Below, in pieces: positions 1,564 through 42,375 of a DNA stretch of 64,000 nt. This DNA comes from Pohlia nutans. Its lineage: Eukaryota; Streptophyta; Bryopsida; Bryales; Mniaceae. The stretch lies in NCBI GenBank assembly GCA_022496805.1, contig CM040106.1, forward strand, positions 5,766,001 to 5,830,000, written 5' to 3'. The position numbers and the translations under genes are program-made. Under the pieces are notes generated by a model. That model was not told where the DNA came from, searched no databases, and saw only the letters and a list, made by a program, of their open reading frames with translations. Each line of letters starts with the position of its first letter. Within the stretch, counting starts at the first letter, position 1.

Positions 1564-2275
1564 AGTTGAATGATTAATACTCTATTTGTACTATGTTTAG
1601 TAACACTTGGACTAGATGCAGGACAATGTTTGATTGCAATATGTAACGGCATTCACGGTCACACTAGTAAAACGACATTAGTTAGAACTAGCGCGAGTAT
1701 AAATTGGTGTTTGTTTTGCTAGTGGTCGCCAAGTCATGGTTCCAAGGTTGGTTGGAGAAGGACATTCGTGTTGTAATTGTACAGTCCGGGTTCGAATCCC
1801 GTTGGGTCCGTTTGAGCGTTTATTGTAATATACGTGGCTTGGTGCTGCTAGTGATTTTATCATAGGCAACCACACATGGTCTATTGATGTAATGTCTATT
1901 TGTGGATCCGCTTTCCATTCGTTTCACTTCATATACAATCATTCTATGGACCACCTTCCGTTCTCTTTCACCTCTACCTTGTATTGGCCATTCATGAATT
2001 ATTCAAGACTATTTTGTTTTAAGATCCAACATATACAGGTGATTTTAGGGAGTGTATTATGTTTCTCACATGGTCACTCCATTCCCACAACCACACCAAG
2101 TATTAATAATTCTCAACACCACAACACCGTGCAAACTCGGGGAAGTCACTCTTTGTATCCTTTGAGTATCACGTGTGAACAAAGGGTATTTAATAGTACC
2201 CAAAGAATTATTATTACACATACTATACATCCTCTTCATGTGTACATGATAATCCAACTACCATGGCATGAAGTA
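1564..2275 (+). repeat. left terminal inverted repeat, about 0.7 kb
   Basis: Blocks shared in inverted order with 41695-42375 include TTTAGTAACACTT, GATTGCAATATGTAACG, CTTCATATACAATCATT, CCACAACACCGT and CATCCTCTTCATGTGTACAT. The outer edge lies near TTGAATGATT at 1564. The middle differs between the copies: this one holds a tRNA-like sequence that the right copy lacks. ORFs across it show no protein resemblance. Confidence 0.75.
1738..1809 (+). pseudogene. tRNA-like sequence, Thr(UGU)-like, degenerate
   Basis: This 72-nt stretch has a B-box/T-loop (GGTTCGAATCC), an A-box-like TGGTTGGAGAAGG, and ends GGTTCCA/TGGGTCC that pair at five of seven positions. The anticodon loop reads GTTGTAA, giving UGU, but the anticodon stem pairs poorly. 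It is therefore a tRNA pseudogene or a SINE head rather than a working tRNA. It lies inside the left inverted repeat. Confidence 0.55.
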
Positions 2276-2508
2276 ATGATTAATAGTTTAAGATTACATT
2301 TTAGCGCGTGACAATATTCACGGCAAATGGATCATGACAAGTAATTGCCACTGAATCATATATTTTGTTAAGGGTTTGAATTGTTTGGGTAACAATTACT
2401 CTTCACCCAATCTCCTACGCGTATACAAATTTTATACTTCTACAGGGTGGTGCTTTTGTGGTAAACAATTACCAAGAATTGAAGAGTATGTCTTTTGTTT
2501 CTAGAATA

Positions 2509-2764
2509 ACTCGGGGGGTTTACTTCCAAAAAATTACAAATGCCGTGCAAAAAAATATAGGGTTTAAATAAATCTTGGAAGGTAATTTCTATAAATGAAT
2601 TACATTAATATAGGATGCTAAAAATTGATTACAAGAATAATTATGAGAATATTCTTGAAATATTACTAATTATAGTAATAATTACTTTTATATTTAAGGG
2701 TACTTTTAAATACCCTTTTTCCACACATGATACGCAAAATATACTAAGAGTAAACCCCCCGAGT
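2509..2764. repeat. foldback hairpin, perfect 16-bp arms
   Basis: ACTCGGGGGGTTTACT at 2509-2524 is repeated as its exact reverse complement at 2749-2764, with about 225 bp of AT-rich loop. A second, looser inverted pair (around 2150-2195 and 2697-2745) flanks it. It may be a decayed MITE inside the large element. Confidence 0.6.
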
Positions 2765-3704
2765 AGAATAATTGTCTGCCAATTGCTATTTTCAATTTTT
2801 CCCCTATATTCTTATGTTCGCTTCAATCCCCTACTCGACTTTGCATGCACAATCCATAAGTCATCGCATGAGACATGTCGAATGAACTCATGATGATGAC
2901 TCGGTGTCAAATGCACACCTATTCAACTTCCGCTGTCTATGCATTTTGCCATCGGCTGAAACTGGAAGAACACGCTGCAAAGTGCATAAAATTTAATCCA
3001 TGTCAAGTTCCTACATCACATTATAGTTTAGGGAAAAATTGAACAACGTAATATGTAAATGATGGAACTCTGCCACAACACGCTTACCTTGCGAAGACGG
3101 TATTCACCCACACATGGTCTATTCTCCTAGAAAATTTCCAAACCCGGTATGTTATCAAAACTCGGTATTGCCACACATTTACAATTATTGTTTATGTTCA
3201 CCAAGTCCTCTAGCGGTCGTCTAGTAATTTGTATAAATTGATTTTTCTGAAGAGCGCTTCCTTCCACCTGTGTTGACGAAAATAAATAAATTCTAGTGCG
3301 TACTAGATTATGGTGGAAGGCGCCTAGTGAATACTTATATATCTACAACTGAAGTTTTCGTGGTGCCCAAATCTTCAACTTCACGCGCCCTACGAAGAAA
3401 CTCAATTTTTCTGTACAGACCGGGCACCATTTCATTCAAAAATGACGCTCACAGCCACTAATCACAAACACCTTCAATGCAATATTACAACAGAAAACTA
3501 TCCTTGTTTTGCCTTGCTGCTTCAATGGCTACATGCTGCCTTATAACATCAGATTCCTGCGGTTGCCATGCAATGTGGTAAGTATCTTACAACCTCCTTG
3601 AATTTAGCATGGAGCATCCAGCAGATGTTTTGAATCAGTGACGGAAATCTATACCTGTGTGGCTGGGATAATGTTGTCTACGGGACCTTCAGATGTGCGC
3701 ACCT
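2765..3704. other. non-coding stretch
   Basis: I see no gene. One short hairpin is present, GCGCTTCCTTCCACC near 3254 against GGTGGAAGGCGC near 3312. The stretch lies between the left terminus and the 3' end of the ParB-like pseudogene. Confidence 0.5.
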
Positions 3705-4294
3705 TCATGTGGACCATAAGGCACCTGCTAATGCAATCGAGGTGGTCTGATGGGTAATGTGCGTGGAAGGAGAGTCTGTGAACTCACTCGCACTCACTTC
3801 CTGACTCATCCAAATTGCCTCTTGCAACTTCATTTGGTTCTGCGTTGCTTCTTCCTTGAGCCTGTCCAACTCCATTCTCAATACCTTGTTCTGCGTTGCC
3901 AGCTCCCTGCTCGCCCGTTGTGCCTCTCGATTTATGGCCAACCTCTTCTTTGAGATCTTCTGTAGTTGTATTCTCAAAGCTCTTTGTTGTAAAACCTTCT
4001 GCTCTCCACCGTCTGCTGGCACAACGTCGTTGGCATCATCTGACAAGTCGGACTGCTTATCAGATGGGAAATCTAACAAGGATTCTCTTTACGCATCGTC
4101 ATCTGATCTGCTATCAATCTTGATGGCATTGTCCTTATTAGACGGCAGGGAGACCGTCACCTCCTCCTTCACCGTAATCAGAGCAGGAATGGATGGAACT
4201 TCAGATGGAGGCACAACAGATATCTCACAAGTTGTGCCCGGAACTGCAGCCAGAACAAGTCCCGCATCGCGGACAGCGTCGTCCTCGATGGTTA

Positions 4295-4317
4295 CCAATG
4301 GGCAATTGACCACTAGC
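4295..4317. repeat. palindrome copy 1
   Basis: CCAATGGGCAATTGACCACT followed by AGC, an imperfect copy of CAGTGGTCAATTGACTACTG. It lies in coding repeat unit 1. Confidence 0.7.
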
Positions 4318-4531
4318 ACAGGAGAGGGAGTGAAACCCAACAAGTCTGCTGACTCAGCGGCCGTTGACAAATTTGGATTTTGCATAGGGGCCACGCGTGC
4401 ATCGTCCACACTTTGCGATACCATCGAGGACTACACGGAATCAACGGCAACTGGCAATTTGTGGATATGTTCAGCGCGCTCGTCAGCAGTGGCACAAGTG
4501 TTTTCGGGAACGGGAGCTTCCTCACTGCTTG

Positions 4532-4554
4532 CCATTGGGCAGTTAACCACTGGC
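4532..4554. repeat. palindrome copy 2
   Basis: Core GGGCAGTTAACCACTGGC in coding repeat unit 2; it keeps the inverted CCA..TGG ends. Confidence 0.7.
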
Positions 4555-4768
4555 ACCAGAAAGGTAGTGAAACCCAACAACTCTTCTGACTCCGCGGCTG
4601 TTCAAGAATTCGGAATTTCCATAGGGGCCACGCGTGCATCGTCTTCACTTCCCGATACCATCGAGGATTGGAGGGAATCAACGGCCGTTGGGAGTGGGTC
4701 CCCATCTCCAGTGAGCTTGTCGGTAGAAAGAAAATGCATCACGGGAGCGGGAGCTTCCTCAGTAGTTG

Positions 4769-4790
4769 CCAGTGGGCAATTGACCACCAG
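4769..4790. repeat. palindrome copy 3
   Basis: Core CCAGTGGGCAATTGACCACC in coding repeat unit 3. Confidence 0.7.
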
Positions 4791-4999
4791 ATACGGAGTG
4801 AACCCCAATGTGTCTTCTGACTCACCGGCCGTTGAGGAATTTGGGTTTTCCATTTGGGCCACGCCTGCATCGCCCTAACCTGTCGATACCATTGAGTGTT
4901 GGACGGAACCAACGGCGACTAGGAGTTGGTCCCCATCTCCAGTGCGCTCGTCGGTAGAAGAAAAACTCTTCACGGGAACGGATACTTCCTCGGTGGTTG

Positions 5000-5023
5000 C
5001 CAGTGGGCAATTTACCACAGGCA
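5000..5023. repeat. palindrome copy 4
   Basis: Core CCAGTGGGCAATTTACCACA in coding repeat unit 4. Confidence 0.65.
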
Positions 5024-5347
5024 CCGGAGAGGGAGTGAACCCCAACATGTCTTCTGCCTTAGATGAAGGTGCTTTAGAAATCCGCACTTGGGCCATGCTT
5101 GCCTTGAGCACTCCAACGCGATGCATAACCACAAATTGTTGGGCAGAGTTCACCTCTGCGCAATCGCCTGCTGCAACAGAATCAGTTCCCAGTTCCTCCT
5201 CAATGTCTGCCGGAGGCGCACTCTCATCATGACGGATTTCCAAATTAATCACAGTATAGTTCATGGGCAGCGATACTGCCGTCATTGACCACGTCGTTCT
5301 CGACTCTACTGCCCACATGCACTGGCAACTTTGCTTGCTCAACAGTT

Positions 5348-5371
5348 ACCACTGGGCAAGTCACTACTGGC
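5348..5371. repeat. palindrome copy 5
   Basis: Core ACTGGGCAAGTCACTACTGG, outside the tandem repeats but in the same pseudogene; it encodes PPVVTCPVVTVEQ on the minus strand. Confidence 0.6.
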
Positions 5372-6236
5372 GGTTGTGCATCACCTGTGGACTCTTCACG
5401 CGCGTGATCAGATGGTACGCGGACTTTAGAAGGGGAGGGTTTGGGTGACATGAGACTAGCATAATCTCCTAGAAGTGCCATTGCTTCGCTCAAGTTCCTA
5501 GATTGACCAGCTGGGCTTAAGGGTTGAGCCGATTCATGATCGCCTTCTGCTTGTTAACGGGGACTGAACGGAGTCAGAGGTACTGGGGTACAGTGTTCTA
5601 CAATCTGTGCTGGTGCATCCCTTTGAGGCAAAAAGTGATGCTCATTCTCTACGTCCATGTCATTGGCACCTGACGCCGAGGCTTCCAGATCTTCTGCCTT
5701 GGTCAATGTCACGGCCGCGGTCTCTAGAGCGTCGTCCTGACCCTGCAACGCACTTTCCAAAGGCTCTTCCGCGTCGCTGTCTTGGGATGGTACAAACAGT
5801 CTGCCAATGGGCTGGCGTTTTAGATTTGTAGATGGTCATTCCCCCTTGCTCCCTGCACCTTCATCACTATGGTCACTGTCACCGTCCTCGCCTGATTCTT
5901 CGCTGCTTGCGCCAGGCTCCACATTCAATGCGTCATCGGCAGTCTTACCACGGTCTGCAAGACTCTTGGACCGGAGTTCTCGGCGCGCGACATTAGAAGT
6001 TTCAGGTTCTTCACTTGGCGGAGTACGCTTCATTGGATACCACGTGCCGTCTTTCTTTGGCTCATCCAAACTTCTGAAGTGCGGAGCCGATTTGGTGGCT
6101 CATGACGATGATTTTGAAGTTATCTCCTGCCAACCCCACTGCCACGGGTTGGATATCAAATATCTGCACATCAACTGATAAGGTTTGAAATTGTCAACAA
6201 TGGTCAGATGTACAGTGAGATAACAGCAGATGGTAT

Positions 6237-6257
6237 CGGTGGTCAATTGACTACTGG
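6237..6257. repeat. palindrome copy 6
   Basis: Core GGTGGTCAATTGACTACTGG in the ParB-like pseudogene, followed at 6343 by a half copy (GTGGTCAATTGA). Confidence 0.75.
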
Positions 6258-7395
6258 CACAAGGAAACGAGCGTACTATGGCCGCGATCATGCATTTCAG
6301 CCCGGCAGCCACGCATAGCACAAATCAGACGCTTTCTCCTCGTGGTCAATTGATGGAAGCTTCATAATGAAATGCAAGTACACCTCCATCCTAAGTTCGT
6401 CTTCGTGCATGTCAACCTCCCTTACAGATCCCACCCACTTTGTGGACTCCGAAGAACGAATTTCCTTCTTCCAATTCACTGCGTTTGCTATCTTGGGAAC
6501 CCATAAGTACAAGATGCTGACACCGTTGCCTTTTTTCAAGATCTGGGGTGAGAAGAAATACGTCTCTGCTAACGCTGGCAGGTATCGGCTCTCCAAATGC
6601 CGATACCCTTTTAATTGGCCACCCACCACCTTCAGCGTCTCATTCTCATTCGTGCAATGGCAAATGACCATCCAATGAGGTGGCCACCTGCTATAGCGGC
6701 TCCGTTGCAGCATCTTAGAGAGGATCGACTTGTAGCTACGATCAATGCCCACAACCTCGCGCTCCAGCCATCAGTCGATTACCCGCATATCCATTATGGC
6801 CCCATCGAAATGATGGTCTTCTGATCTAACAACATCCCATGCTTCAGGATCAGTAACATCCCTCCTGCCAAGAGCATCGGGTCGAAACTTCGCAAATCTC
6901 TCAAGTGTCCTGTCTTTCTGGACCTTGCCTAGTACAGGAGTTATCTTGGAGTCCAAGACGTGCTCTTTCTCCAGTATTCTCTCCATATCCGCCAAGAATG
7001 CATCCGAGGGGGGCATTTGTTCTCTTCTAGGAGTGTTGCTTACTTTCATGGACTTCAACAGGAAAAGTTTTGTCGCCCGCCTGATGAGCTCGTCCATGTG
7101 GGCTTAGTTGGACCCATGCTTGCATCTGAATTCGACTCATGCCGCTCGATCAAAGTCGTCGTTGACCCAGAGTCTCTCGGGTAACTTCTTATTTAGCCAC
7201 CGAACAACGGAATTCTTCACCTTCTTTCTATCCGTCCAGTCCTTCAAGCTAGAACAGTGTTTTTTTCTGGGCCGAGTACTCCCCAAATACACTTTGGGAA
7301 CCGCATTGGACTCCTTATCCAGCTCCCCTTCGGCTGTCAAGCCAACGGTGATTTTCCGCACCAACTCGAGAAGTGAGTCCGTTCCTAAGCCACGC

Positions 7396-8730
7396 TGTCG
7401 CGATGCAAATGCGCATATAGTGTAAAAACTTATAGTATTGTTATTTTGATGAGTTTTAAGATATCTCATTTAAAGAAGAAATGAATAGGGAATATTTGAG
7501 AAAGATTATGAATTGATTCATAATCTCTACAAGGTTTTAATTGCCTTGTGTTTTGACTAATAAGAGTCAAACTTTACATTTATCTTCTTAGAATGAGTTT
7601 TGATATTTAATTTGAGTTTTGATAGTTGTTGAAAAGAAAGGTGAAGATTGTTTTACCTTTCTTTTAGTTTTTTGTGAGTTTATCATTAAAATAAGCGAAT
7701 GGATAGAGGTATGGGAGACTTTTGGGTCACCCAATTAGTTTTAGGGTGCCCATGTGGCTAGGTATGGGCTGATGTGTTCCCCCTTGTGGCTTGATAAGGG
7801 GGGCCTTCTTCTCCCGAACCTCATTCTTCTTGTGTTCATGTTTTAGTTTTCTAGTTTTGTGCCGTGTGTTTGAGGACAAGTGACTTACTGTGTATAGCTC
7901 GGATTTCAATGAAATTTTGAGAGTACGTTCCTCTTCTTGTTGTGATTCCAATGGTGTGTGGCGCTTGTCATTTGGAGTTAGTATGAGAAAGTTATGCCTT
8001 GAGAAGTGAAAGAGGGTTTACTGCCGTCGAAATTCAAAGGCAGTCGCTTTAAACTCTTGTAGAAATTTATATAATGATCGATTAGTTTTGAAATTTGGTG
8101 AGCACATGTGTTATGTTGATAGCTTTCTAAAAAGCTATTAAACTCTTGTTTTGGAGTTAGGACGTGAAAGTTATGCTTGTAGAAGTTTGAGGGTGTGAAA
8201 CTGCCGCTCAATATAGGAGTTCCATTTTTGACGAAGTATAGAAAACGGACAGTATGATATTTTAAGCTAAGATTTACAGGCAACGTAGATGGTGATGTTA
8301 GCTTTCTAAAAAATTATGGCATCATGTATTTGGAGCTTTTATGAAGATGATATGCGTCCCGAAGTGGAGAGATGTACAGCTGCCGTGAATATTTGGAGTC
8401 TCAACTTCAGCACGCTATAAATATTGAATGGTAAATCATTTTCTCTTGAAAATTTTACAGATTGTGTAGCTTTGTGTTAGCTTTCCAGAAAGTTATAGCA
8501 CACTTGATTTGGAGCAAGTATGTGTCTGTGGCATTCATTTGAATGCTGACAGTGTTTTTAAAGGTTTAAGCCTTTACACGGTTTGCTATTTTGCAAAATA
8601 AAACATAGATTTGGGTTTTTAATGGTATAAACAATAAATTACACTATCATATTTCCCCATACCTTGAATTCAAACTAGTTGCAGTTAGAAACCCCGCGTT
8701 TTCCCAGAGCAAAACCCTCTCTACCCGACA
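7396..8730 (+). repeat. gypsy-A 5' LTR
   Basis: TG...CA termini. I saw no difference from the 3' LTR when reading both, so the insertion is recent. The middle holds degenerate internal repeats (around 7960-8540) in which GTTAGCTTTC-like, TTTGGAG-like and CTGCCG-like landmarks recur. Short minus-strand ORFs inside are not supported as genes. Confidence 0.95.
7960..8540 (+). repeat. degenerate tandem repeats inside the LTR
   Basis: Four loosely similar units of roughly 150-200 bp each carry a TTTGGAG(T/C)-type start, a GTTATGC-like stretch, a GAAGTG(G)AGAG-like stretch, CTGCCG and AGCTTTC(T/C)A.AAA.. The same set recurs at +7692 in the 3' LTR. Its position suggests the transcribed R/U5 leader. 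Confidence 0.6.
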
Positions 8731-8752
8731 TTTGGTGCTTCCACTGAGAGAC
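8731..8752 (+). promoter_or_regulatory. candidate primer-binding site
   Basis: TTGGTGCTTCCACTGAGAG starts two bases after the 5' LTR, where the reverse-transcription primer tRNA should anneal. It ends in the expected TGG...-type tRNA 3'-end complement, but I cannot name the tRNA. It is not the common initiator-Met site. Confidence 0.5.
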
Positions 8753-8781
8753 GCTTTGGGGCAATTAGTTTTAGTTAAAGA

Positions 8782-11481
8782 ATGACGGGGGATCATGATG
8801 GGGCTTCCGGAGGGGGCCAAATGAATATGGAGAATATTTTGGGGGCATTGGCCCTGTATATGGACCATCATAGAGCAAACTCTGGTGGGCATGAGGCTAC
8901 CAAAGCATTGAAGGGTGTTGTGGACAAAATTGGGAGATTTGATGGGAAGAATATCACAAACTTTTTGAGGGTATATGTTTGTGAAATGGAAGTGCATCAA
9001 GTATCTGAGGATCGTATGATGTTGACTTTTGACTTGGCTGTGGTTCCCGAAATTCGTGAGAGGGTGCAAGAAATTCGGGAAGATGTGTATGTGACTTCAT
9101 GGGCCACATTTGATGAGAGATTGAGGGATGAGTATTTTGATGAAGATACGGAGAGGATGACTAAGAGGTCTTTCCTTGATTGGGTGGAGCAACAACCCGG
9201 GAATGATATGGGCCCAAATGAGCTGCTCAGAGAATTTGAGAAGAAATATAATCAGTTGCCTTTAGCAGAAAGGCGCCTTCTTGATACAAGAAAGGCAGAG
9301 ATGTTTTTGCAGGCAGCCGATGATGCATTAGAGGATAGACTCCTCTTGCTTCTTGGGGATAGGACCACTGAAGGTGGTTTTACTAATGATTGGAGGAGGG
9401 TGGAAGAAACGGTGACTCTTGTGGCCAAACAACGACGGGTGAGGTCTAGAGGTATTATTTCACGGACTGATGCAAACCCCATGATGGTTCCAAGGGCTCC
9501 AAAATTATCATTGGCTCCTACAACTCTTGGTGAGACATCAAAAACAAGCAAGAGAGTTGAAGAAGACAGTATTGAAGAGCTTATCAAAGGTATCAGAGAT
9601 TTGAGGGTGGAGATGAGTGAATTGAAGAAGGCACGAGGAGCAAGTTCTTCTCAATCATCAGATGGTGCAAAGTCATTTGTGAAGAGATGCATCTGGTGTG
9701 ATGTCATAGACCACACTCTTCGTGGTTGCACTGATTATGATGGTGCACTTAAAGAAGGTATAGTTTCTTTCAAGGATGGGAGGATTCGTGATGCATCCAC
9801 TGACCTGCCTATGGACACTAATTTTGGCAAAGGTGGAATGAAGAAAATAATGGATGAGAAGAGGGGGAAGTCGAGTGCTTTGCGTGCTAAGGGAGTTGAG
9901 TCATATCATATTGAGGTGGACCATCATACTATTGAGGCCTCTTCTACTCCAGCAAGAGAGATTATGATCAGAGGAGCACAAGCTATCAGAAAGGCAACCG
10001 GTTGGGAGGATCCTGTTGATGCAGTTAGCATCAAAGCATTTTTGGGTGAGGTGCAAAATGACATTGAGAATCATGATGCATCTGTTGAAGTAAAACGGGG
10101 TAGACCTGCAGAAGAAGATGATGCTGATGAGCCAACATTAAAGAAGAAAAATCAAGGGCTTAAAGAGGCTGCAAAGGGTGATGGACCTGGTTTTCACACA
10201 CGCCAAAGGCCTGAGAAATCACCTTCTATTAATCATCCTGGAGATGCACCACTTCCAGAGAAGATATGGGAAGATTCAAGCACCAGCAAGAAGGTCAAAG
10301 AGAAGGAAGATTCTGGCAAAGGTAAAACTAAAGGGCCAGCTTACAAGCTTCAATCTGATATCGAGACTTCTATTGACATGAAGGGGATATTGGAGGAGAG
10401 GATTTTGGATGCCAAGATTGAGTTTACATTGAGAGAGGCTCTTGGTATTGCCAAGAAAGATTTTCACGACCTTATCATTGATGTTATCAAGAGAAAAAGG
10501 CAAATGACAGCTGAGACAGTTATGATGCATGCATTGGATACTCATATGACAGAGGATGAGGAGATTGAAATCGGGCAAGTATTTAATATGATGTGTGATG
10601 CAAAGGGTGATGAAGAGAAGATTATGAACATGAATATCGAGGCATTGGAAGAGCAGAAAGATCAAACTGAAGAGATGAAGGATTATCTTACTGATGAAGA
10701 AGAAGATGATATTTTGAAGATGTTTGCTGCAGAGTGTATGATTGACATCAAAAGAGATGTTACCAAAACTGAGCATTCTATTGAAGGTTTGAGCATGAAG
10801 GGATATGAGTTGATGGAAGTGAAGAGCTCAAAGAAAGAAGCCCATTCCATACTAACTCAAGATGAGGGAAAAGAAATGGTGGATGGAATGACTACTGAGG
10901 TGGCATATGAAGAAAGATTTGAGGTGGAGGCAAATGTTTTTGATTGTGGAATTGTTGATGAAATTGATCGTGAAAGAGGAGGAAAGTTGAATTATTATCA
11001 ACCATTTTGGGCAAGGGCCACTACGGAGACACGAGTGAGACTTGGTGAGTTGGATGATTCTATCTTGGCACTTGTGGACCATGGCTCTGAAATAAATATC
11101 ATGTCAAAGAGAATTTATGAGAAAGGCAAGTGGCCGATTGATACTCATCACGGTTGGATCATGAGGGCTGCAAACAATGGAAGAGGAGAATTATATGGGG
11201 CTTGTCCGGCTGTATGTGCAAAAATTGGCGATGTTGAAGTTGAGCAAAACTTTTTTGTTCAAAACTATGGGACATATCCTATAATACTTGGACAACCATA
11301 TATCACAGCAGCTAGAATGGAGACCAAGGTCTTGGATGATGGGTCTCATTATGCACGTATTCGGAGTCGTGATGGCAAGAGGTCTCTGCAATTTTTAACG
11401 GTGAGACCTGATCATGAAAGAAACAGAATCCAACTTAGAGATGCACCTCTAAGATCTGGTGAAGACTTTCAGGATTTCTAA
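8782..11481 (+). CDS. gypsy-A ORF1: Gag with aspartic protease
   Basis: Encodes 899 residues, starting at the first ATG 51 bp after the 5' LTR. Residues about 50-250 form a retrotransposon Gag capsid-like region (GRFDGKNITNFLRVY, DEYFDEDTERMTKR, ELLREFEKKYNQLP). A CCHC zinc knuckle, C-x2-C-x4-H-x4-C, sits at about 303-316 and would bind RNA. A long acidic, charged section (about 450-720) follows. Near the C-terminus is a retropepsin-like domain with the active-site motif LVDHGSEIN at about 764-772 and an ILGQPYI stretch near 835. The protease therefore lies in ORF1 rather than ORF2, and it has DHGS where DTG or DSG is usual. ORF2 begins 53 bp after the stop. The frame is unbroken, in contrast to the relics around it. 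Confidence 0.93.
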   Translation: MTGDHDGASGGGQMNMENILGALALYMDHHRANSGGHEATKALKGVVDKIGRFDGKNITNFLRVYVCEMEVHQVSEDRMMLTFDLAVVPEIRERVQEIREDVYVTSWATFDERLRDEYFDEDTERMTKRSFLDWVEQQPGNDMGPNELLREFEKKYNQLPLAERRLLDTRKAEMFLQAADDALEDRLLLLLGDRTTEGGFTNDWRRVEETVTLVAKQRRVRSRGIISRTDANPMMVPRAPKLSLAPTTLGETSKTSKRVEEDSIEELIKGIRDLRVEMSELKKARGASSSQSSDGAKSFVKRCIWCDVIDHTLRGCTDYDGALKEGIVSFKDGRIRDASTDLPMDTNFGKGGMKKIMDEKRGKSSALRAKGVESYHIEVDHHTIEASSTPAREIMIRGAQAIRKATGWEDPVDAVSIKAFLGEVQNDIENHDASVEVKRGRPAEEDDADEPTLKKKNQGLKEAAKGDGPGFHTRQRPEKSPSINHPGDAPLPEKIWEDSSTSKKVKEKEDSGKGKTKGPAYKLQSDIETSIDMKGILEERILDAKIEFTLREALGIAKKDFHDLIIDVIKRKRQMTAETVMMHALDTHMTEDEEIEIGQVFNMMCDAKGDEEKIMNMNIEALEEQKDQTEEMKDYLTDEEEDDILKMFAAECMIDIKRDVTKTEHSIEGLSMKGYELMEVKSSKKEAHSILTQDEGKEMVDGMTTEVAYEERFEVEANVFDCGIVDEIDRERGGKLNYYQPFWARATTETRVRLGELDDSILALVDHGSEINIMSKRIYEKGKWPIDTHHGWIMRAANNGRGELYGACPAVCAKIGDVEVEQNFFVQNYGTYPIILGQPYITAARMETKVLDDGSHYARIRSRDGKRSLQFLTVRPDHERNRIQLRDAPLRSGEDFQDF

Positions 11482-15044: not shown

Positions 15045-15074
15045 GTTTGGCACATACCGGAGGATGTGCAGGTT

Positions 15075-31198: not shown

Positions 31199-32620
31199 TG
31201 GTAGTGTAGATATGTTTGGATTGAGGGTAACTAACATATGTTCTAAGTTAGTGAACATGCTTAGGGTTTTTCTACACCAAAATGTGTTACAATTTGTAAA
31301 TGATGTGTGACAAGCTATTGTTAATGGGGTGATTGCAAGCTATGGTCTACCAAGTGGGGAGTGCAGCTTGTGCAGCTAAAGGCCGTGCAGCTCGTGCACT
31401 AGCGTAGTAATGCGCACCTCTCAACTTTCAATTAGATCAAAAATTTCACCATCCCAAATAGGGTTTATGCTAATACTTTCACTTTAGCAATTGTTAAATT
31501 AATTTCAAGACTTAAGGCATTACTCAATAGCCTTTTCTGTTTTTTACCGAGCAGGGGTAATTAGAGCCTTTTTTACATAACATCCTTAGCTAGGTTTTAT
31601 GAAAAATTCATTTCATATCCCACCTCTGAAATTGAACCATTATTTCATTTCCAAAAAAAAAAATCCAAAAAAAAGTTTTAACTGCACGAAAATCTTAAAA
31701 AACAAAAACATCACAAAACAATTCATTAAAAAATAAGTAAGCGTAATACCAAAAAAAAAAAAATATGTAGCTTTGTACACACTTGTGGTATGTTGCTATA
31801 ATTTTTGGAAGTTCAAATTTGACACCCTTCTAGCATTTTCCATAAAATAGGTGCACTTTTGACAAGCGTCACGCTACCAAATGTAAGTAGAAATGCTTAA
31901 TTTGGATAGAAAGATTGAAATTTTGAAAACTTTATTATGGTAGACATCTTAACTTTAGAATTCTAGAAACAATGCAATTTGTTTCGTCACAAAATTCCAT
32001 TCCAATATTTATTGATGATTTTCCAAAGATTGAGTAAGTGCACCAATTTGTAGACCACGACAAAAAGTTTGGGTGACCGTAGCTTGCAACCACCCTATGT
32101 ACTATATGGATCTTCAAGTCCATTGGAAGGCCGTCAAACACCTTGCAATAATTGAATATTCTGAACATCTTAATCAGAGAAAATTGGTGAAGCCTTGAAT
32201 TGGAAATTAAATTAGAAACACAGTTGTAGCTTGTGCCTATGGCATGTATACAATATATGGGTTCAGGGTATACGGCAAGCATACACTACATAGATTCAGG
32301 GTTTATGGCTACAGTAAATGGATGACAGTACACAGTATTTGGGTTCTGTGGATGGGAATGGATGAAATGGATGAAAGTTTGTTAAAATAGACGACCATCC
32401 TTGATATGGATGAATTTATCCGGACACTCCATTCACGCATCCACCGTATTTGAGGTTGTGCTTGGAGTGATTGAGGGATTTCAGATCCACCCATTCGCAA
32501 TTGCATGGATGGGGTTAGATTTCTATACATGCCATTCATACACTTAATCTTCAATGCGTGAACATAGCAATGTGTCCTTAGAATTCACAATTTAATGAAA
32601 ATTGATCATAAACTTCTATA
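31199..32620. other. AT-rich stretch without recognised gene
   Basis: A minus-strand ORF at 31935-32282 (115 codons) has ordinary composition but no family I know. Otherwise there are only A-runs and short repeats. Confidence 0.35.
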
Positions 32621-32629
32621 AAGGATTAA

Positions 32630-33240
32630 TTTTTTGAAGATTATATACAAAAGGCAAGTTCTAGATTGTTGATTTTAGGTAATGAAGGTGAACACTCATT
32701 TCCACCGGATTTGAAAATCCAATGATTGGACATGTCGGATTCATGATTTGGCGAATCATATAGAATTTTGTCTCCTAAATCACAAGGGCGGCTTATTTCA
32801 TGATGTCTTGTATTTCACTATGTCTTATCATATTTAGTAAGTACAGAATCATGTTTTTAACTTATTTTTATATTCAATTGTGTGATTTAGAAGTTTGGTA
32901 AGTATAGAATCAATTTATTTACTTATTTTTATATTCAATTGTGTGATTTAGTAAATACAATATCAATGTTTTTACTTATTTTTTTATTCAAATTGCGTGA
33001 TTTAGAAATTTAGTAAGTACAATATCAATTTTATTACTTATTTTTATATTCAAATGTGTGATTCAGAAATTTAATAAGTACAAAATCATGTTTTTTACTT
33101 ATTTTTATATTCAATTGTGTGATTTAGAAATTTAGTAAGTACAGAATCGTGTTTTTTACTTATTTTTATATTCAATTGTGTGATTTAGAAATGTGGTAAG
33201 AATAGAATCAATCCCTTTTTTGTCTAATTTTTTGTTTGAG
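32630..33240 (+). repeat. third foldback arm with about 60-bp tandem units
   Basis: The start matches the inner part of the 21.4-23.4 kb foldback (GAAGGTGAACACTCATT, GGCTTATTTCATGATGTC). It is followed from 32825 by about six units of TGTGATTTAGAAATTTAGTA plus AGTACAGAATC and a T-rich segment. Confidence 0.75.
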
Positions 33241-33294
33241 GGGGTCCGGAGTTGAATTTACCTATGTAAATAAACTTATATATGTCTTATTTCT

Positions 33295-33480
33295 ACTTTA
33301 TGGGGCTTAAGTCTAAGTAGAATAAGCTTTGTAGTACTTATGTCTAAGTAGAATAAGCGTGGTAGTACTTATGTCTAAGTAGAATAAGTGTGGTAGTACT
33401 TATGGTTAAGCACACTAAGATTACTTTTTTTTATGTCTTTGCGATCTAAGTTTTGTAGTGCTAATGTCTAAACACAATGT
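33295..33480 (+). repeat. short tandem array related to the 62-bp intron array
   Basis: Units of GTAGTACTTATGTCTAAGTA plus GAATAAGC. They are the approximate reverse complement of the 38.0-38.4 kb units (CTTAACCATAAGCACTACAA), so the two arrays are inverted relative to each other, 5 kb apart. Confidence 0.65.
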
Positions 33481-34063
33481 GAAATATATAAGTTTATTTT
33501 CACACTATTTACATCATGCTAAATTTGGAGAACTTTCACTTCTACCGGATTTGGATCGATGTTTGTAAATCTAATGATTAAATGATAATCATTCCTTATC
33601 ATGTTTGAATGTGAAATTTTGGGCTTGGGACCCCTTAGAGTGTGAACTACATAAGAAATAGTTTCTATTTTTGGACAGCCAGTTCTCATCCAACAAAGTC
33701 ATTCAGTGCAAGATGAATTCCCGTGAGCCCAGCTTTTTTGGCGATGAAATTCGTGCCCGCCCTCGCCACAAGGCTGCTTTGGCAGGGTGGCTATCCTTCG
33801 TTTACGCTTCGCGCGCTTGTTTGAACCAGCCGCTTCCCCCCCACACGGCGCTGCAGACTCTGCTCTGCTCAAATGGCGCATACTGGTGGAATCCCAGTTG
33901 CGAGAGGGAGATGGGAGAACTCGCTTAAGTCTCTGGTGTCAGCTTCAACCAAGTCCGGTTATTTTTCAGTGGCGCCGCCCACGACAGGCTTCAGCCTGCT
34001 GTTATCTCTTTCACGGATTGCGGGTGTTTGAAGCTATGTTTTAGCAAGCACGAAAGATCCACA

Positions 34064-34240
34064 ATGGCGGACACGTCGGAGGAGGATGCGGCTCGCAGTG
34101 GAGACTCCGATGAATTTCTGGCGATGATAGAGGAGGAGTGCGCCGCCTTGGACGAAGACGAGTCGAGATCCACAACGCCATCTGAGAGCGCGGACTCATC
34201 CCTGTACGTGGATTCGTCAATTGGGAGCACTTCAGATTAG
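34064..34240 (+). CDS. small acidic ORF, 58 codons, possible first exon
   Basis: The ATG sits in a favourable context (CACAATGGCG). The product begins MADTSEEDAARSGDSDEF and is almost entirely acidic and Ser/Thr. Base composition rises sharply in GC around it (33700-34240) compared with the AT-rich flanks. No homologue is recognised. It could be the first exon of a gene whose remainder was lost to the minisatellites downstream. Confidence 0.35.
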   Translation: MADTSEEDAARSGDSDEFLAMIEEECAALDEDESRSTTPSESADSSLYVDSSIGSTSD

Positions 34241-34869
34241 CAAAATTGTGAGTTTTATTTTGCCCTGGTTTTGGTAAACCCCACTGCGCCTAATTTGCGC
34301 TGATGTGCCTAACTGTCGTTGTTTTGAATGCCATTGGAAGCGTCGGTGTTTAGAACCCGGGTTGTGTCCCCTGTTTTGGATTTAGGGTAGTGCGAATAAG
34401 CTGCCTCCAATGCTCCTAAGCTGCAATGGAATTCGCCTAAGCTGCCTCCAGCGCGCTTCAGAGTCGGTGTTTTCATCCACATTTTGAGTGCTGCATTGTG
34501 ATTCAAGTGGTTTAGGACTTAGGTATCCTTGCTTTCAAGATCCTTACAGTGTTGTGGTTGCTTTTTTGTGTTTGCAGAAGCATGATAGAATTGGGCGGTT
34601 TTTGGTTTTTTTCGCGCTGTGGGTTCCTTTGGTTTGCAGACGCACTTCATTTGTGGATGGCAAAAGCACAGTGTGGGTTCCTTTTTTTGGCAGAAGCACG
34701 GGAGATATGGTTTAGGGTGGCCATACTGTACATGGTATGTTTTGAGCAATGCTTAGCAATTTTGAGCAATTTTGAAAAAACAATGATTGAATTGCTTTAG
34801 GGTTCCTGTGAATGCCATATACATGGTCTTTTTGACTACGTTTGTAAAGTTTTTTGAACCCTCCCTAGT

Positions 34870-35410
34870 ATGTAGAATACACTTACTTGGCAGTTTTGAA
34901 CACTTGTGTGAATTCTATGAATGCCTTGGATTTAGTTTTGAACACTTGTGTGAATTGTATGAAGGCCTTTGGTTCACTTTTGAACACTTCTATGAATTGT
35001 ATAAAGGCCTTTAGTTCAGTTTTGAACACTTGTGTGAATTGTATGAAGGCCTTTAGTTGGCAGTTTTGAACATATATGTGAATTCTATATATGAAGGCCC
35101 TTATTTGGCAGTTTTGAACACTTGTGTTAATTCTATGAAGGCCTTGGGTTCAGTTTTGAACACTTCTGTGTGTTCTCTAAAGGCCTTGGGTTCGATTTTG
35201 AACACTTGTGTGAATTCTACGAAGAATTGTGTGATTCAGTTTTGAACACTTCTATGTGTTCTATGAAGGCATTTAGGGTGCAGTATTGAACACTTGTGTG
35301 AATTCTATGCGTAGCCTTTAGTTGGAAGTTTTGAACACTTGTGTGAATTGTATGAAGGCCTTTAGAGTTCAATTTTGAACACTTGTGTGAATTGTATGAA
35401 GGCCAAGGTA
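34870..35410 (+). repeat. minisatellite, about 41-60 bp units
   Basis: About eleven copies of TTTTGAACACTTGTGTGAAT followed by T(C/G)TATGAAGGCCTT. The intermittent ORFs here are by-products of the repeat. Confidence 0.9.
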
Positions 35411-35740
35411 GTGTTGAACAAATTAGTCCAACTTCAGGTTAAATTGGAAGGTCCAGCTCGAGGCTAGACCCTAAAATTCCCACATTACATTCACTAAGGT
35501 AACCCTGAACACCTTAAAAATCCCACAAAACATTCACTAAGGTAGTGTTGAACAAATTAGTCCAGTTTCAAGTTAAATTGGAGGGTCCAGCTTGAGGCTA
35601 GACCCTAAAATTCCCACATTACATTCACTAAGGTAACCCTGAACACCTTAAAAATCCCACAAAACATTCACTAAGGTAACCCTGAACACTTTAGTGCAAT
35701 TTGGGGTTACATTGGAGGGTTCGGCTCGAGCCTGGACCCA
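35403..35740 (+). repeat. 134-bp tandem duplication
   Basis: AAGGTAGTGTTGAACAAATT starts at 35405 and 35539, with a diverged third copy from about 35673. The segment lies between the minisatellite and the 3' end of the minus-strand transposase. Confidence 0.8.
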
Positions 35741-35808
35741 AAAAAAAGTGCCAACTCCGAAGAGTCGGCACGGTGCTCAATGAACACTTAGGGTGCCACT
35801 AAGTTTAG

Positions 35809-38800
35809 TTACTCAAACAAGCCAGCAGACTGTTCTGCATCCAAAATGATATCCAACATGTCAGTCTGCAGCTCATACGCAGGAAAGCTTCCCTTCACAC
35901 TATGGAGAATGGGGGGCATAGAAAACTTCCCTGTTAGAAGAAGATGTGAATACACCCAAGCAACCGGTTTATCATCTCTCAAACGATAAGTTCGGCTTCA
36001 TGGGCGTGATTGTTCATACCAAAACTCTCTGATGACCATCTCACCAAGGAGGTATTCTTGACCCGCGTCATTAATGAATGCAGCCTCTACAGCATGGACC
36101 CCTTTGTCTATCAACATTAGCCAAAATTACTCATCCGAATTGGGATCAGCCCTCACTGCCACATTGTCATCGACCTTTATGGCATCGACTACGTATTCAC
36201 CCAACAAGATCTCCTCATTATAGTCGTACATGGCCCTCACCTGACTGGCCAATTTTGGTTTCAATCTCCGCAAAGCCCAACTAGGCACATGATCACGATT
36301 ACTACAATCCGAATCAGGATCAATGTCCACGCAAGACACACAAAAACAACTCAATTGCCGAAATTAGATCAACGTGGGGTCCTGGTGTGAGACAGATCTA
36401 ACCTGATGCATGCCGCGACTCCCATTGATAGTCTCATAATCGTACAACTTCTTACAATCAACATCACTACGATTGATTAACCAAAAATGCTTGTTAGTAT
36501 GCCTGCGAGAACCTGCATTTTTTGCATAAACCTTATTAGCTTCGTTACGCAGATAGTTAACCACTTCGGCTGCACATTGAAGTTTCTCGCCATTGGGCTT
36601 TATTTGCTCTTTGCGGAGCTCATGCTTGAATAGAGCTCCAGCCCCATCAACCTCTCTTTTTCCATGACCTGTTGCAAATTAGTTCCACAACATTTGGCAA
36701 CCATCCATGAATTCAGGAGAAGAAGTCAAATTAGGGTACCTTGAAATGAAGTACCATGCTCGAGCTGACTTGAACTGGCCAAAGCACCCATCACTCCAGA
36801 CCACATGGTTAGACGGTGAGACTCCTTTAGATTTCAAATAATCCCAATTCAACATGAAAGCATGTTGGACCAACAAGGTATCATGATTAGGTTCATCAGA
36901 GACATAGTAGTGAACTTCCCTAATGATCAAACGTTCATCACTATCACGAGTCCATAGTGGATTTAATCTGAAAGTAATATGGACTAAAATGGTAACTTGT
37001 GTCTTCCTGAAATGCATACTTTGGATTTCGTTTTGAACCATCATGGTGTAATTTTCACTAAAGTCAATGCAAGAAATAACTGTATCCCTAGGAATTCCAC
37101 ACATCAAATCCTGAAACTGAACCTCCTGCCAAGTAGCAAAATAGTTATGAACAATAAAAGTTTTCAAACGAGGCTTCAAATAAACTATCAAAGCATGAGG
37201 TTGGGTTTCGTGGTACTCAACACATGCGGCCTTTCTCTCCTTCCCTTCTTCTGTGTAGCCCACAACTTCCTGGCCAATGCTCCTCCACTTTATCACTCTA
37301 TCAGAGCTAGCCTCAACGGGGCATATTTTGAGCGTCTCCACGCCACAGTGGCTAAAATCACCAAGCAAACACTCTCGCCAATGCTAACATGCCAATTCAT
37401 CTTTATCACAAAGGACAGAGCTCCACAATTGGGTCATTCTACCATAGACGTTGGAGGTTCCATTACACGTTGATTCCCCAAGACCAGTGCAACATACTAA
37501 GGCACATCCACACAAACAATCTACCCCATGAAGCTCGCATCGCATATCATTAAAACCAGCAAGCAACAAGCCCAATTCTTGATGATACTTGCAACAAGTG
37601 TTCCTGTTTTTTAGCCGCCTTACCCACCAAGGTTTCAGTGATTGAAACGTAGAGAGCTTACACTTCGTGTCAGGGTACTTGTCTTTGAATGCAAAGTAAA
37701 ACTCTAGCTGCAAAAAAAGCAAATGAATTGTTAAACCACTGAGTACTTTAAGGACCCTGAACCCTAAACCACTTAGTACACAAAGGGCTTCTCAAATTCT
37801 GAAAGCACAGAAAGTGCACCTAATTTATTGTAAGCATGTACAAGGACGTGATAACTACTACAAGTGCATATACAAGGACAACAGTACCATTGCAAGTACT
37901 AAATACAACTTAAAGACTTCTAAAATACCTCAAGCACCACAAGAGCTTATTCTACTTAGAAATAATCACTACAGAGCTTGGAGTAAGTGCACCTAAGTTC
38001 TACAAAGCTGAGTGTGCTTAACAATAAGTACCCTAAAACTTAGTGTGCTTAACCATAAGTACTACAAAACTTTTTCTAGTCTGATTTAAGCACTACCGAG
38101 CTTAGTGTGCTTAACCATAAGCACTACAAAGCTTATAAAACTTAGACATAGTTACTACAGAGCTTAGCGTGCTTAACCATAAGCACTACAAAGCTTATAA
38201 ACCATAGATATACATACTACAAAGCTTAGTGTGCTTAACCATAAGCACTACAAAGCTTATAATACTTAGACATAATTACTACAGAGCTTAGAGTGCTTAA
38301 CTATAAGTACTACAAAGCTTATTACCCTTAGACTTAAGCCCCACAAACCTTACAGTGATTAACCATAAGCACTACAAAGCTTATTCTACTTAGACTTCAT
38401 TACTACAGAGCTTGCTTTGCTTTAATCGGCGTTCAACAGTTCAGTCCTTAGTCTAATCAGAGTCAAGCCCTACAAATTCTAGACTACTTAGATAATTCTA
38501 ACATTGCTTTGATATAAATACCACAAAGCTAATTCAGTACTACAAAGCCTAAACAAGAAGGAAAATTGTAATTCACTGCTTCTTTTGAGATTACCAAAGT
38601 CCCCTAAACCCTAAACACAGATTATATGTGATTGATTTACCACAGCAAGTGAAGAAATCGCTCAATAACTCCGAAAATGAATTGTTTACCTAGTTCAAAC
38701 ATACATGACGGACCTGCAAGTAGTGCACCTGGTGCTCCTCGTACTGATTGACTCCTATGCGCTTTCGTACCTGATCTTTCCTATTAGGAGAGATAGAGGT

Positions 38801-39502
38801 TTCATTATTCCACCATTGTCACACAAGTTCTTCCTCAACCTTCATCGTTGCATCTGCTCTCCTGGATCTACTTGTATACAACCAAAAAGCGTGTTTTTGA
38901 GCATCAAGTTGTAACCTCCTCTCAATTCCCTTCTTCACATTTCGTCTATCCAGTCCTAACACACCCTGGATCATCCTGCTAGTGCCCACAGATGAACCTG
39001 CTGCACACGTGCAGATTATGTCTTTGGCCATGACCACTTTGGCCTTACGGGGACCTTTGAGATGACTTGTGACACCATCCTTAATACCAGCCACAACTTT
39101 GGTAGCAACCCTAGCAGCTGCGGGATCTCTTAAAAAAGGGGGCACGATTCTTGAGAGCAAAGGTTGCCCTAAAAAATTTTGAATACACAAATGATGAACA
39201 TCACGACTATGGCCTTGCAAGTTAGACAATGCGTACAGCCCAAGATCTCTAGCTATATCTGCACTAATTCTCTGGGTTTGCCTGTCATACGAAGACCTTG
39301 TTCTCGACCGTGCTACTTCAGCTTGTTGTAGCACTTCAACGTTTGCAATAGCGAAAACTGCGACTACACTCTCCCTACGAGCCCTACATCGCCGTTGATT
39401 CTTAGAGTTGCCTCGTCTTCTCTTCTCTGCATACAATGTTGAGCAGTTAAATCCGCCTTGCTGCTCCAATGATGACGCCATCTCCCACCTGACCTCTCCC
39501 AA
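35809..39502 (-). pseudogene. DDE-like transposase, two exons, six in-frame stops
   Basis: Exon 1 (39502-38705) has a basic start (NQRRCRARRES), a helix-turn-helix-like LGLDRRNVKKGIERRL, then SPNRKDQVRKRIGV and EEHQVHYLQ. The intron (38704-37708) starts GTATGT and ends TTTTTTTGCAG. Exon 2 (37707-35809) has KYPDTKCKLSTFQSLKPWWV, a Cys/His-rich zinc-like stretch, then CIDFSENY, VVWSDGCFGQFKSAR and GHGKREVDGAGALFKHE, which give candidate D, D and D/E catalytic positions. A C-terminal CFCVSCVD motif follows. The pattern resembles a family I recall from non-seed plants and animals; I cannot name its superfamily. One frame holds throughout, but stops occur at 38819 (TGA), 37384 (TAG), 36679, 36364 and 36127 (TAA) and 35998 (TGA). 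Confidence 0.75.
38040..38420 (-). repeat. intron minisatellite, exact 62-bp period
   Basis: CTTAACCATAAGCAC-type landmarks at 38111, 38173, 38235, 38297 and 38359 are each 62 bp apart. The array lies inside the intron of the minus-strand transposase pseudogene. Confidence 0.9.
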
Positions 39503-39539
39503 TACAACCCTAAAAGATCAATAGCCAATTACCCTTACA

Positions 39540-40320
39540 AACCCTTGCATTGCAAAACCCAGTACTTCTAAATACAGCGAGCTGCAAAACCCTGCCCCCT
39601 AATCCCTGTGGATCTAAATTCTTAACCCAAAACCGCTTCAAATTCGTAACATTGCACTGCAAAACAAAATACTGCATACCCTACAGGGTAAACAACCCTA
39701 AACCTTGCTGGCGTTTTCTTCTGCAAAACCTTGCGCTGCAAAACTCCGCCTCCAAAACCCTAGCGGCAGGACAATCACCCTTCTGGTGCTCTAAACCCTA
39801 GCGGCAATGAAAGAAATCTATAGAGCTACAAATGCAAACACTTTGACCCTGCAACCCTAAACCCTGCGCTGCAAGTGCTGGCGGCAAGACAAGAAGAGAA
39901 GGTACCCTAAATCGCTTGCGCAAAAAACTAAAACTGACGCAAATTCCTGAGCGGCAAGACAACAAGACAAGGTTCTCAAACAAGCTCTTGCGGAAAAAAC
40001 CCTGCGCTGTGCATCCTAGCGGCAAGACAGCAGGACGGGGGTACCCTAAACCAAAGTAGAGATGCAAAACATTGCCCTGCCAAACCCTAGCGGCAAGTAA
40101 GCAAGACGGGGGTACCAAACACGGTGAACAAGATCCAAAATATTGCGCTGCAAACCCTAGCGGCAAGACTGCAAGACGGGGGTACCAAACACCAGAGTAG
40201 AGATGAAAAACATTGCGCTGCAAACCCTAGCGGCAAGACGACAAGACAACGAGACGGGGCACCAAATATCAGAGAAGCGATGCAAAACATTGCGCTGCAA
40301 ACCCTAGCGGCAAACAACCC
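39540..40320. repeat. minisatellite, about 70 bp period, upstream of the transposase
   Basis: GCGCTGCAAACCCTAGCGGC followed by AAGAC recurs, with landmarks at 40014, 40085, 40155, 40225 and 40302; units are more decayed towards 39550. It lies directly 5' of the minus-strand transposase, where a subterminal or promoter array would be. Confidence 0.85.
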
Positions 40321-40771
40321 TCTCGAACAGTGGCTGAGAAATGTACAAGTGCCATTGATAGTAGATGAGCATTGTCACACATCCATTCAATAGAACCTCT
40401 CATCCAAAACCCTAACTCCATTCCTTCCTAGAACGGTCACGAAAAATTGTATCTTCGTGATACATAATGAAGAATTCATCTACATATTTCATCCATGTAG
40501 GTGCTTATTAAGGACATAAAGCATTGATGACATGCTTATTTTAGTGCTAAACAAACATAAATATTTATTAAAATAACCAATGAGGTCCATTATATGTTAC
40601 ACAAATAGTACTAGAACTTTAGAATAGAGATAATTCACTTCTTTTCAACTTCTAAGACAAGACAATTCTTCCACAAACCTTTTTCTAAGCACTGATGACG
40701 TCCTTAGTGGCTCGTTTTACCTTGTTTGCACCCTCAACTCCATACCTTGCAAACTCGCCGAAGAAGGGACC

Positions 40772-41033
40772 ATGTTTACGAAATTGCCTCCAATATTGCA
40801 TGTCCAGTTAGATAACTGTTTGGTCGCTTCTAGTTACGAAGGGCATTTTGAAGAAATTCAGGTGTGGTTTATAGTTATTGGCCACACCCATGACGACGTT
40901 GATGCGTCGTTTGGCCGTTGGATCATGAAGTTGCGAGAAAAGGATTATCCAACAATTCCCTTGTTAATGAAATCGTACATGGATTTGGATGACGAACCGT
41001 TCATTCCCGGATTGATTGAAGAAGTACCTGACT
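40772..41033 (+). pseudogene. DUF7869-like core fragment
   Basis: Encodes PPILHVQLDNC, then IVIGHTHDDVDASFGRWIMK, then PLLMKSYMDLD and LIEEVPDSR. QLDN and GHTHDDxD are hallmarks, as I recall them, of the DUF7869 RNase H-like core. About 20 residues normally present after QLDNC are missing, so it is internally deleted. A CACTA-like MITE follows immediately. It corresponds to the part missing from the gene at 27194-31198 and has the same orientation. Confidence 0.75.
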
Positions 41034-41205
41034 CACGACTAGGGAGTGCGTAAAAACCAAGACAAAACCAAGACACATCTGTTGGAACCAACAGAGAATG
41101 GGTTTACGTAGCAAACATTTAGTCATCTGCACAGAACCAACAAGTTTTCTCTTGGAACCAAAAAGTTCTTGTTGATTTTCCTCTTGGAACCAACAAGTTC
41201 CTGTT
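41034..41205 (+). mobile_element. CACTA-like MITE, truncated copy C
   Basis: The start CACGACTAGGGAGTGCG is a mutated form of the 12-bp terminus. The body matches copies A and B, then breaks off after CAACAAGTTCCTGTT. It disrupts the DUF7869-like fragment. Confidence 0.85.
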
Positions 41206-41694
41206 CTTGCTTCATTCCGACTCTTGATGACATTATTTTCCTTTTTACGTTGCGCACTTAATATGATGTTTTTTGACCTTGAAATTGTGCAAGAATGTCT
41301 GATAGGGCATTGTTCTTAGTGATGACAATGGTGTATCGTCTCGAGGGGTGCATTGTATATTATGTTCCTGAATCCCCTTCTAAAAATCCCCTTCTATACG
41401 AGAGGTTATATGTCTAAATACATTTGTATACAAATGTTTTACCTGTTTAAATGTCATTGGAGTATAAATACGTGAATATTATCAGATTCTGAATTATGTG
41501 TTTATTTTATGTATACAAACTTTGCAATGTTCAAATTAATACCATTATTGTGCACTCACATGTACTCGTACATGTTTAGTACCACCCAACCCCCAAGTAT
41601 AAGAAAAAGCAATTCGTAACTATTGTGCAACTAGTGTTGTAGAACATAAAAGTACAACGTCATACTCGAGTTCTTTTTAACTCATTTGAATTAC
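41206..41694. other. AT-rich spacer
   Basis: I see no gene between the MITE and the right inverted repeat. Confidence 0.4.
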
Positions 41695-42375
41695 TCCATG
41701 CCATGGTAGTTGGGTATAGTAAACCATGTACACATGAAGAGGATGTATGTTTTATTCTATCTTGTACGGTGTTGTGGAGTTGGGATGATTTGCATAGTAG
41801 GATCTCCTGAACCGGATGAAAAATGTAATCAAGAGGGGATGCACAGATTACATTTTCTGGCGGGATGACCTGTAGTAGAAAGGCTACAATGGAATTTCAA
41901 AGTGTTCATAATATCATCTAGAAGCCTCTAAATTTTATGAGGTGTTGTGCTCAAATCACATTCATATGCTAGGTTTAAACATTGAATAGGTTTGAATGAT
42001 TTGTGACCAGCCAATAAAAGGCAGAGACAAATGTATCACGGAAGGTAGACAATATAATTATACAATGATTGTATATGAAGTGAAAATGGGGATGTGGAAT
42101 ACAAGAATCAGCACTAAACTTTCCCAAAAATGGTGGATTTAAGTTGGAGCAGATATGCAACCGAAAGTAGAAATTAGCTGTATATAGTATATCCTAAACC
42201 ACTCTGTAGGTTATTATTATACATGAAGCAAAGTCGTAATCACGTATACCCTAATCCACAATGTAGGTGACCGTGAACGGCGTTACATATTGCAATCAAA
42301 GATTGTCGTGCCACGAGTATCAAGTGTTACTAAACTTGGTACAAATAAGTATAAATCATTCAATGAAGGTGCACG
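41695..42375 (-). repeat. right terminal inverted repeat, about 0.7 kb
   Basis: Reverse complement of 1564-2275 in collinear blocks, with a different middle and no tRNA-like segment. The outer edge is near AATCATTCAATGAAGG at about 42355-42375. The gypsy-B gag remnant begins within about 30 bp. Confidence 0.75.

Follow-up and report, generated by a model that had tools for sequence, protein, structure and literature searches.

A 19-23 kb inverted-terminus DNA transposon in the moss Pohlia nutans with DUF7869 and ParB-like genes and a family-specific palindrome array

What do the two inverted repeats at 1564-2275 and 41695-42375 of a Pohlia nutans chromosome segment enclose? The segment, hereafter the window, is a stretch of 64,000 nucleotides (contig C22, positions 5766001-5830000). 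A sequence-only reading had proposed a giant transposon of about 41 kb with 0.7-kb inverted termini that bracket a leftward ParB-like gene and a rightward DUF7869 gene. We searched the genome (698 Mb in 332 contigs) and found that a large terminal inverted repeat (TIR) DNA transposon with both gene systems does exist, in many copies genome-wide that share common ends paired inward. The window holds a decayed copy of this 19-23 kb element, whose ParB-like protein would read the palindromes of the element. Six copies were read in detail. Family 1 is represented by the window copy and by copies E (C22:1551900-1571500), B (C18:20971300-20992700) and C (C7:3205600-3226700), and a sister family, family 2, by two copies (C13:19205200-19233199 and C5:38748500-38776500), one of which is named S1. 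Copy E was read whole and serves as the reference.

The inverted arms described by the earlier reading as collinear over several blocks were recovered in the window as four block pairs: 1560-1662 with 42267-42369 (86 %, E 4e-28), 1922-2048 with 41950-42085 (69 %, E 8e-11), 2225-2277 with 41690-41748 (83 %, E 6e-13) and, weakly, 2111-2134 with 41762-41785 (E 0.003). The left block has at least 67 matches in the genome (best 40 of 3867 candidates scored), and its inner part (query 318-712) was found at 17 further places at 91-97 % identity among the candidates scored. The right block gave 40 matches including the window itself, mostly full length and at 91-96 % identity outside the window (best 40 of 126). 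Six of the seven loci fetched at left-block matches share homology that starts about 126 bp beyond the equivalent of window position 1560 and extends at least 2 kb inside, and the blocks are therefore the ends of a longer element; the seventh, L003, has different DNA at this position. On the right, 29 of 30 fetched loci reach one common end, which is still legible at L033 where the alignment falls 5 bp short, and the remaining locus is the broken one of the window.

In copy E the element spans 249-19359 (19.1 kb). The left arm of the window begins at E 375 and the right arm stops at window 42515, equivalent to E 19207, so the window copy is missing the outer 126 bp on the left and 152 bp on the right. 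The right edge had been placed at 42375, which is short of the arm, and neither proposed edge is a true terminus. The inverted blocks of copy E are 249-327/19282-19359 (92 %), 322-477/18959-19115 (86 %), 1031-1172/18642-18790 (71 %) and 1349-1401/18382-18440 (85 %). The proposed inverted ends were thus confirmed, but not their length, as those of E extend in blocks over about 1.0-1.15 kb. Other copies in the genome share the end bases, AAGGGCATATTCG..., and a 30-bp pattern of the terminus, allowed at most three mismatches, matched 216 and 222 times on the two strands (reversed control 0). The inverted terminal repeats at fixed ends are those expected of a TIR DNA transposon. One observation weighs against the specificity of the arms: a piece of roughly 210 bp from the left arm (about 1658-1868) also occurs alone at 16 scored places. 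This piece (query 95-305) is itself a dispersed short repeat, 91-92 % identical at the solitary places. Whether the terminal repeat is mostly an isolated short repeat can be answered in part: the arms are element ends, and only this sub-block is also dispersed alone.

Among the 100 terminus matches listed, neighbours within 100 kb formed 24 pairs in the +- arrangement, two ++, two -- and no -+. Twelve of the 24 +- pairs span 19.1-22.8 kb, four 4.4-16.3 kb and eight 25-61 kb. The size of about 41 kb has to be reduced to about 19-23 kb; nested insertions and rearrangement account for the surplus in the window. An exact 4-bp target duplication was present in 18 of 25 distinct pairs; four pairs showed one mismatch and three had none. 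These pairs come from a set of eight (seven exact, one with one mismatch) and a set of 20 (13 exact, four with one mismatch, three without), with three pairs shared. In the set of 20 no pair agrees over 5 bp, and a control of mismatched pairs showed agreement over 4 bp in one of 380 cases. The absence of a target duplication, noted earlier, holds for the window copy and not for the family, which has a duplication of constant length. One 4.4-kb terminus pair (L059/L060, C1:50804848-50809250) has a single palindrome inside (C1:50807909) and a 4-bp duplication with one mismatch, and is a candidate non-autonomous copy.

All six copies share one gene plan, the ParB-like gene leftward and DUF7869, or pieces of it, rightward, and the two gene families accompany each other between the termini, whole or in part, in six of six. 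Copies B and C are collinear with E. In the window, both genes lie between the arms as had been read, in pieces. The DUF7869 frame is open in copy C (634 codons) and interrupted by a single stop in B and by four in E; dN/dS is 0.26 (B-C), 0.40 (B-E) and 0.42 (C-E). Copy C also has two open ParB-like frames of 587 and 448 codons, which would be spliced together. Of 2315 genomic candidates for DUF7869, 70 were scored: 29 are 87-98 % identical, nine of them stop-free, and 41 are 73-79 % identical. Public data contain 238 related proteins at E <= 1e-3; of the 120 listed, the two with a named organism come from the mosses Ceratodon purpureus and Physcomitrium patens. The ParB-like query has 11 relatives. 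The DUF7869 relative P0001 scored 145 bits against Pfam PF25273 (cut-off 26), and the predicted fold ranks among DDE transposases in a structure model. Being the sole candidate transposase recognised, and conserved in both families, the DUF7869 protein is very probably the transposase of the element.

The situation of the ParB-like protein was less clear. A structure model predicts a ParB fold for its N-terminal domain. At the motif GERRxRA, given for ParB in PMC7333895, the alignment has NGQHSxAAA. No helix-turn-helix was matched in the protein by Pfam, the model being of low confidence after the ParB fold, and no ParA-like gene was recognised among the open reading frames (ORFs) scanned, although the scan was not exhaustive.

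The sequence-only reading had linked the two arms by common palindromes. These were found again as a 22-bp palindrome, CCAGTGGTCAATTGACCACTGG, with 12 sites in the window at up to five substitutions and none in 10 mononucleotide shuffles:
4295-4316, and starts at 4532, 4769, 5000, 5349 and 6236, unstranded: left of or beside the second half of the ParB-like gene
16696-16717, and starts at 17620 and 18597, unstranded: in or near the first half of the ParB-like gene
25939-25960, and starts at 26570 and 26846, unstranded: upstream of the DUF7869 gene

By the same scan E and B have 10 sites each and C has 12, and first-order Markov simulations of E and C each gave one match per 100 runs. Copy E has four of its sites within the 237-bp repeats to the left of the ParB-like gene, three inside this gene or at its start, and three upstream of DUF7869; the outermost 2.9 kb on the left and all sequence to the right of 14475 are free of them. 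The tandem repeats of about 237 bp in the window (2764-5294) carry one palindrome each, and the flanks of palindromes outside the repeats are mutually unrelated. Between the window and E the palindromes differ at 11 of 220 positions and the flanks at 90 of 800. A length change puts one flank out of register, which contributes 34 of these 90; without this flank the figure is 56 of 720. At least one palindrome is translated, as AGSQLTTGN. Genome-wide, CCAGTGGTCAATTGACCACTGG matched 826 and 796 times on the two strands (reversed control 0). Among the 78 distinct positions in the 100 matches listed, on contigs C1-C5, 63 have a terminus, a right end or a transposase match no more than 50 kb away and 15 do not; such surroundings make up 0.9 % of these contigs.

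The sister family shows how protein and site differ together. Both sister copies have the family 1 gene arrangement with genes about 17 kb apart and a related right terminus, and their proteins are 77 % (DUF7869) and 54-56 % (ParB-like) identical to the nearest queries. The family 1 palindrome is absent from both at up to three substitutions. They carry a symmetric variant, CCAGTGTGCAATTGCACACTGG; CAGTGTGCARTTGCACACTG is found at 16 sites in each sister copy, one of those in S1 being inside a hairpin of other origin, and nowhere in the four family 1 copies. Both half-sites change jointly, GGTCAATTGACC versus GTGCAATTGCAC, and the symmetry is kept. Genome-wide the sister palindrome gave 188 and 183 matches (control 0). 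Among the 54 positions in the 100 matches listed, 38 have a scored family 2 transposase no more than 40 kb away, and none has a family 1 transposase at such a distance. Conversely, 42 of the 78 family 1 positions are within 40 kb of a family 1 transposase match and none of a family 2 match, one of them lying 47 kb from such a match. A listed exact family 2 site was found within 40 kb of 16 of the 29 family 2 transposase loci on C1-C15, and a listed family 1 site at five of the five family 1 loci on C1-C4. S1 also contains a 175-bp inverted pair of terminus-like sequences (L097-L099, joined coordinates 17630-17805), possibly a short element derived from sister-family ends.

It is the ParB-like protein that would most naturally read the palindromes, since its predicted fold belongs to proteins that act on specific sites, seven of the 10 sites of E are in or beside its gene, and the families differ in protein and site alike. 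From the sequences and the model, we consider its binding to them likely, though by a clear distance less secure than the role of DUF7869. In our model the DUF7869 protein, as a DDE/D transposase, would cut at AAGG...CCTT and insert the element with a 4-bp stagger, steps with good support. The ParB-like protein would bind the 22-bp palindromes as a dimer, as ParB does on parS, and then spread over or bridge the gene regions of its own element. The sites are in gene regions and not at the ends, which favours control of expression or chromatin over synapsis of the ends. Our guess is that the element would control its expression from within, by anti-silencing as VANC does or by repression as KorB does, the role of KorB being gene repression. 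Anti-silencing, repression and partition may all be considered as outcomes; anti-silencing specifically, suggested by analogy, is rather unlikely. A superfamily of plant DNA transposons with its own ParB-parS-like system, in which a CTP-dependent ParB-type clamp is loaded at palindromes specific to the element, spreads and sets the element off from host chromatin, and in which protein and sites co-evolve without cross-talk between sister families of one genome, is a tentative idea that could well be wrong.

Another reader is conceivable. The transposase or a host factor could bind the palindromes while the ParB-like protein has some other role; the three E sites upstream of DUF7869 would suit this, as would the transposase itself changing between the families (77 % identity) along with the sites. 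However, the ends of E, where a transposase would need its sites, are free of palindromes, and most sites of both families lie in or beside the ParB-like gene, which leaves this explanation improbable. The palindromes could also encode a peptide motif (e.g. SQLTTG) or represent a spreading micro-repeat without function, given the translated site and the four E sites within tandem repeats. The unrelated flanks elsewhere speak against this, and neither a peptide nor a random repeat predicts a symmetric change of both half-sites in the sister family; we regard it as quite improbable. Slightly less credible still is that protein and palindromes retain or partition an excised, possibly circular element in the manner of a plasmid. 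Such a role fits the predicted ParB fold and an array of palindromes on one molecule, but no ParA-like gene was seen in the incomplete scan, and chromosomal copies with target duplications need no episome. That 1564-42375 is a chance bracket of two unrelated inverted short repeats round unrelated genes, as the solitary 210-bp piece and the broken ends of the window block without target duplication might suggest, is negligible, because ends and genes recur elsewhere as a unit with inward-paired termini and 4-bp duplications.

Binding by the ParB-like protein stays our preferred reading, and a TIR transposon is in itself a known kind of element. VANDAL and other MULE elements are recognised by a MULE transposase and a 9-bp duplication, and En/Spm (CACTA) elements by CACTA termini and a 3-bp duplication. 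We rejected membership in both, as our element has DUF7869 in place of a MULE transposase, AAGG termini and a 4-bp duplication. Sola is a superfamily with a 4-bp target duplication and inverted termini reported in lower plants; our element has these two traits, and DUF7869 could turn out to be a branch of Sola. The bacterial ParABS systems and ParB-like CTPases (ParB, Noc, KorB, PadC) are similar in the predicted N-terminal fold and in palindromes beside the gene. They differ from our protein, which belongs to a eukaryotic transposon, has NGQHSxAAA for GERRxRA and is without a ParA or helix-turn-helix recognised in the ORFs scanned. As a working parallel, VANC of Arabidopsis seems nearest by analogy, with KorB-like repression as the main alternative. 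According to PMC5735166, VANDAL/VANC likewise has an element-encoded protein whose short target motifs are concentrated in the element itself, tandem repeats multiply the motifs, and related VANC proteins and motifs coevolve, changing together between families. The VANC21 motifs described there are nine bases long, single in orientation and mainly non-coding, whereas here we see a partly coding 22-bp palindrome; the predicted ParB fold, DUF7869 and the 4-bp duplication also set our element apart from VANDAL. The enlarged En/Spm elements of Chondrus crispus (16-20 kb), as described in the giant-transposon review PMC6431247, are alike in size and extra genes, and the main text of that review does not mention ParB.

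Pfam DUF7869 (PF25273) is a family without assigned function, here linked to termini, a target duplication and a DDE-like predicted fold. It is not named in the literature searched, which lay outside most subscription journals, preprints and Repbase, and judged by listing no paper there has ParB in moss transposable elements as its subject. We did not find this combination of parts in that literature, and the family-specific palindrome array is the newest part of the finding. For DUF7869 this means a probable function, tied to exact ends and a target duplication of 4 bp, and a predicted fold of bacterial partition type, accompanied by family-specific palindromes, now has a place in a transposon of a eukaryote. 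That one genome houses two sister families whose sites are swapped yet remain symmetric makes protein-site coevolution directly testable by binding assays. Next to VANC, this may be a second example of a transposon recognising its own DNA.

Judged by its alignment with E, the window copy is a decayed copy that has lost both termini and was enlarged by nested insertions, and is unlikely to move by itself. It consists of the following parts:
1560-2277, plus strand: left terminal region, 95 % collinear with E 375-683 and 1005-1633
2510-2763, unstranded: nested insertion of 254 bp with inverted repeats, duplication TAGAATAA (8 bp), junctions read, no counterpart in E
2764-5294, minus strand: region left of the ParB-like gene, 91 % to E 1626-4156, tandem repeats of about 237 bp
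6337-7395, minus strand: ParB-like gene, second half, 91 % to E 4162-5218 (tblastn with P0122)
7396-16422, plus strand: nested Ty3/gypsy-type long terminal repeat (LTR) retrotransposon, LTRs 1335 bp and 100 % identical, duplication ACGC
16423-18541, minus strand: ParB-like gene, first half, with the predicted ParB-fold domain at 16821-17372
18796-19732, minus strand: nested solo LTR, 5-bp duplication GCTCA
26115-26349, unstranded: nested 235-bp insertion with relatives at 41032-41202 and 58281-58516
28119-28505, plus strand: DUF7869 gene fragment, P0001 residues 409-537, 83 % identity, E 3e-66
28505-40733, unstranded: stretch of about 12 kb mostly without E counterpart, with repeats, a candidate transposon and a RING-like ORF
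40673-41032, plus strand: DUF7869 gene fragment, P0001 residues 179-313, 67 %, E 4e-47; Pfam PF25273 E 1e-14
41205-42515, plus strand: right terminal region, 95 % to E 17899-19207, outer 152 bp and terminus lost

The left terminal region has lost its outer 126 bp with the terminus, and about 0.3 kb internally. The region 2764-5294 could be either a further exon of the ParB-like gene or a third gene. We also considered 5295-6336 and 25014-25609 as insertions; they have length counterparts in B and C and are rather deletions in E. The ParB-like gene is split into its two halves by the retrotransposon, which has two long open frames (8779-11481 and 11463-15044) and, with its identical LTRs, is a very recent insertion. 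The DUF7869 gene is scrambled, residues 409-537 preceding 179-313 with 12 kb of mostly foreign DNA between them. Behind the first fragment, the frame 28686-29546 weakly resembles a RING finger (Pfam E 0.005, which does not reach the cut-off) and is possibly a captured gene. Further along, inverted 31-bp tandem repeats (33275-33491 and 37944-38484) flank an ORF pair on the minus strand (36679-37791) that holds an SDGCFGQFK motif, which makes 33275-38484 a second transposon candidate, nested within this 12-kb stretch.

The 235-bp insertion and its two relatives, two of the three being inside the element, carry AACCAACAAG/CTTGTTGATT segments. The solo LTR is about 75 % similar, in reverse orientation, to the LTRs of an older gypsy-type element at 55296-63210, which are 94 % identical to each other. 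Finally, 131-bp tandem repeats, each near-palindromic, occupy 46904-47568.

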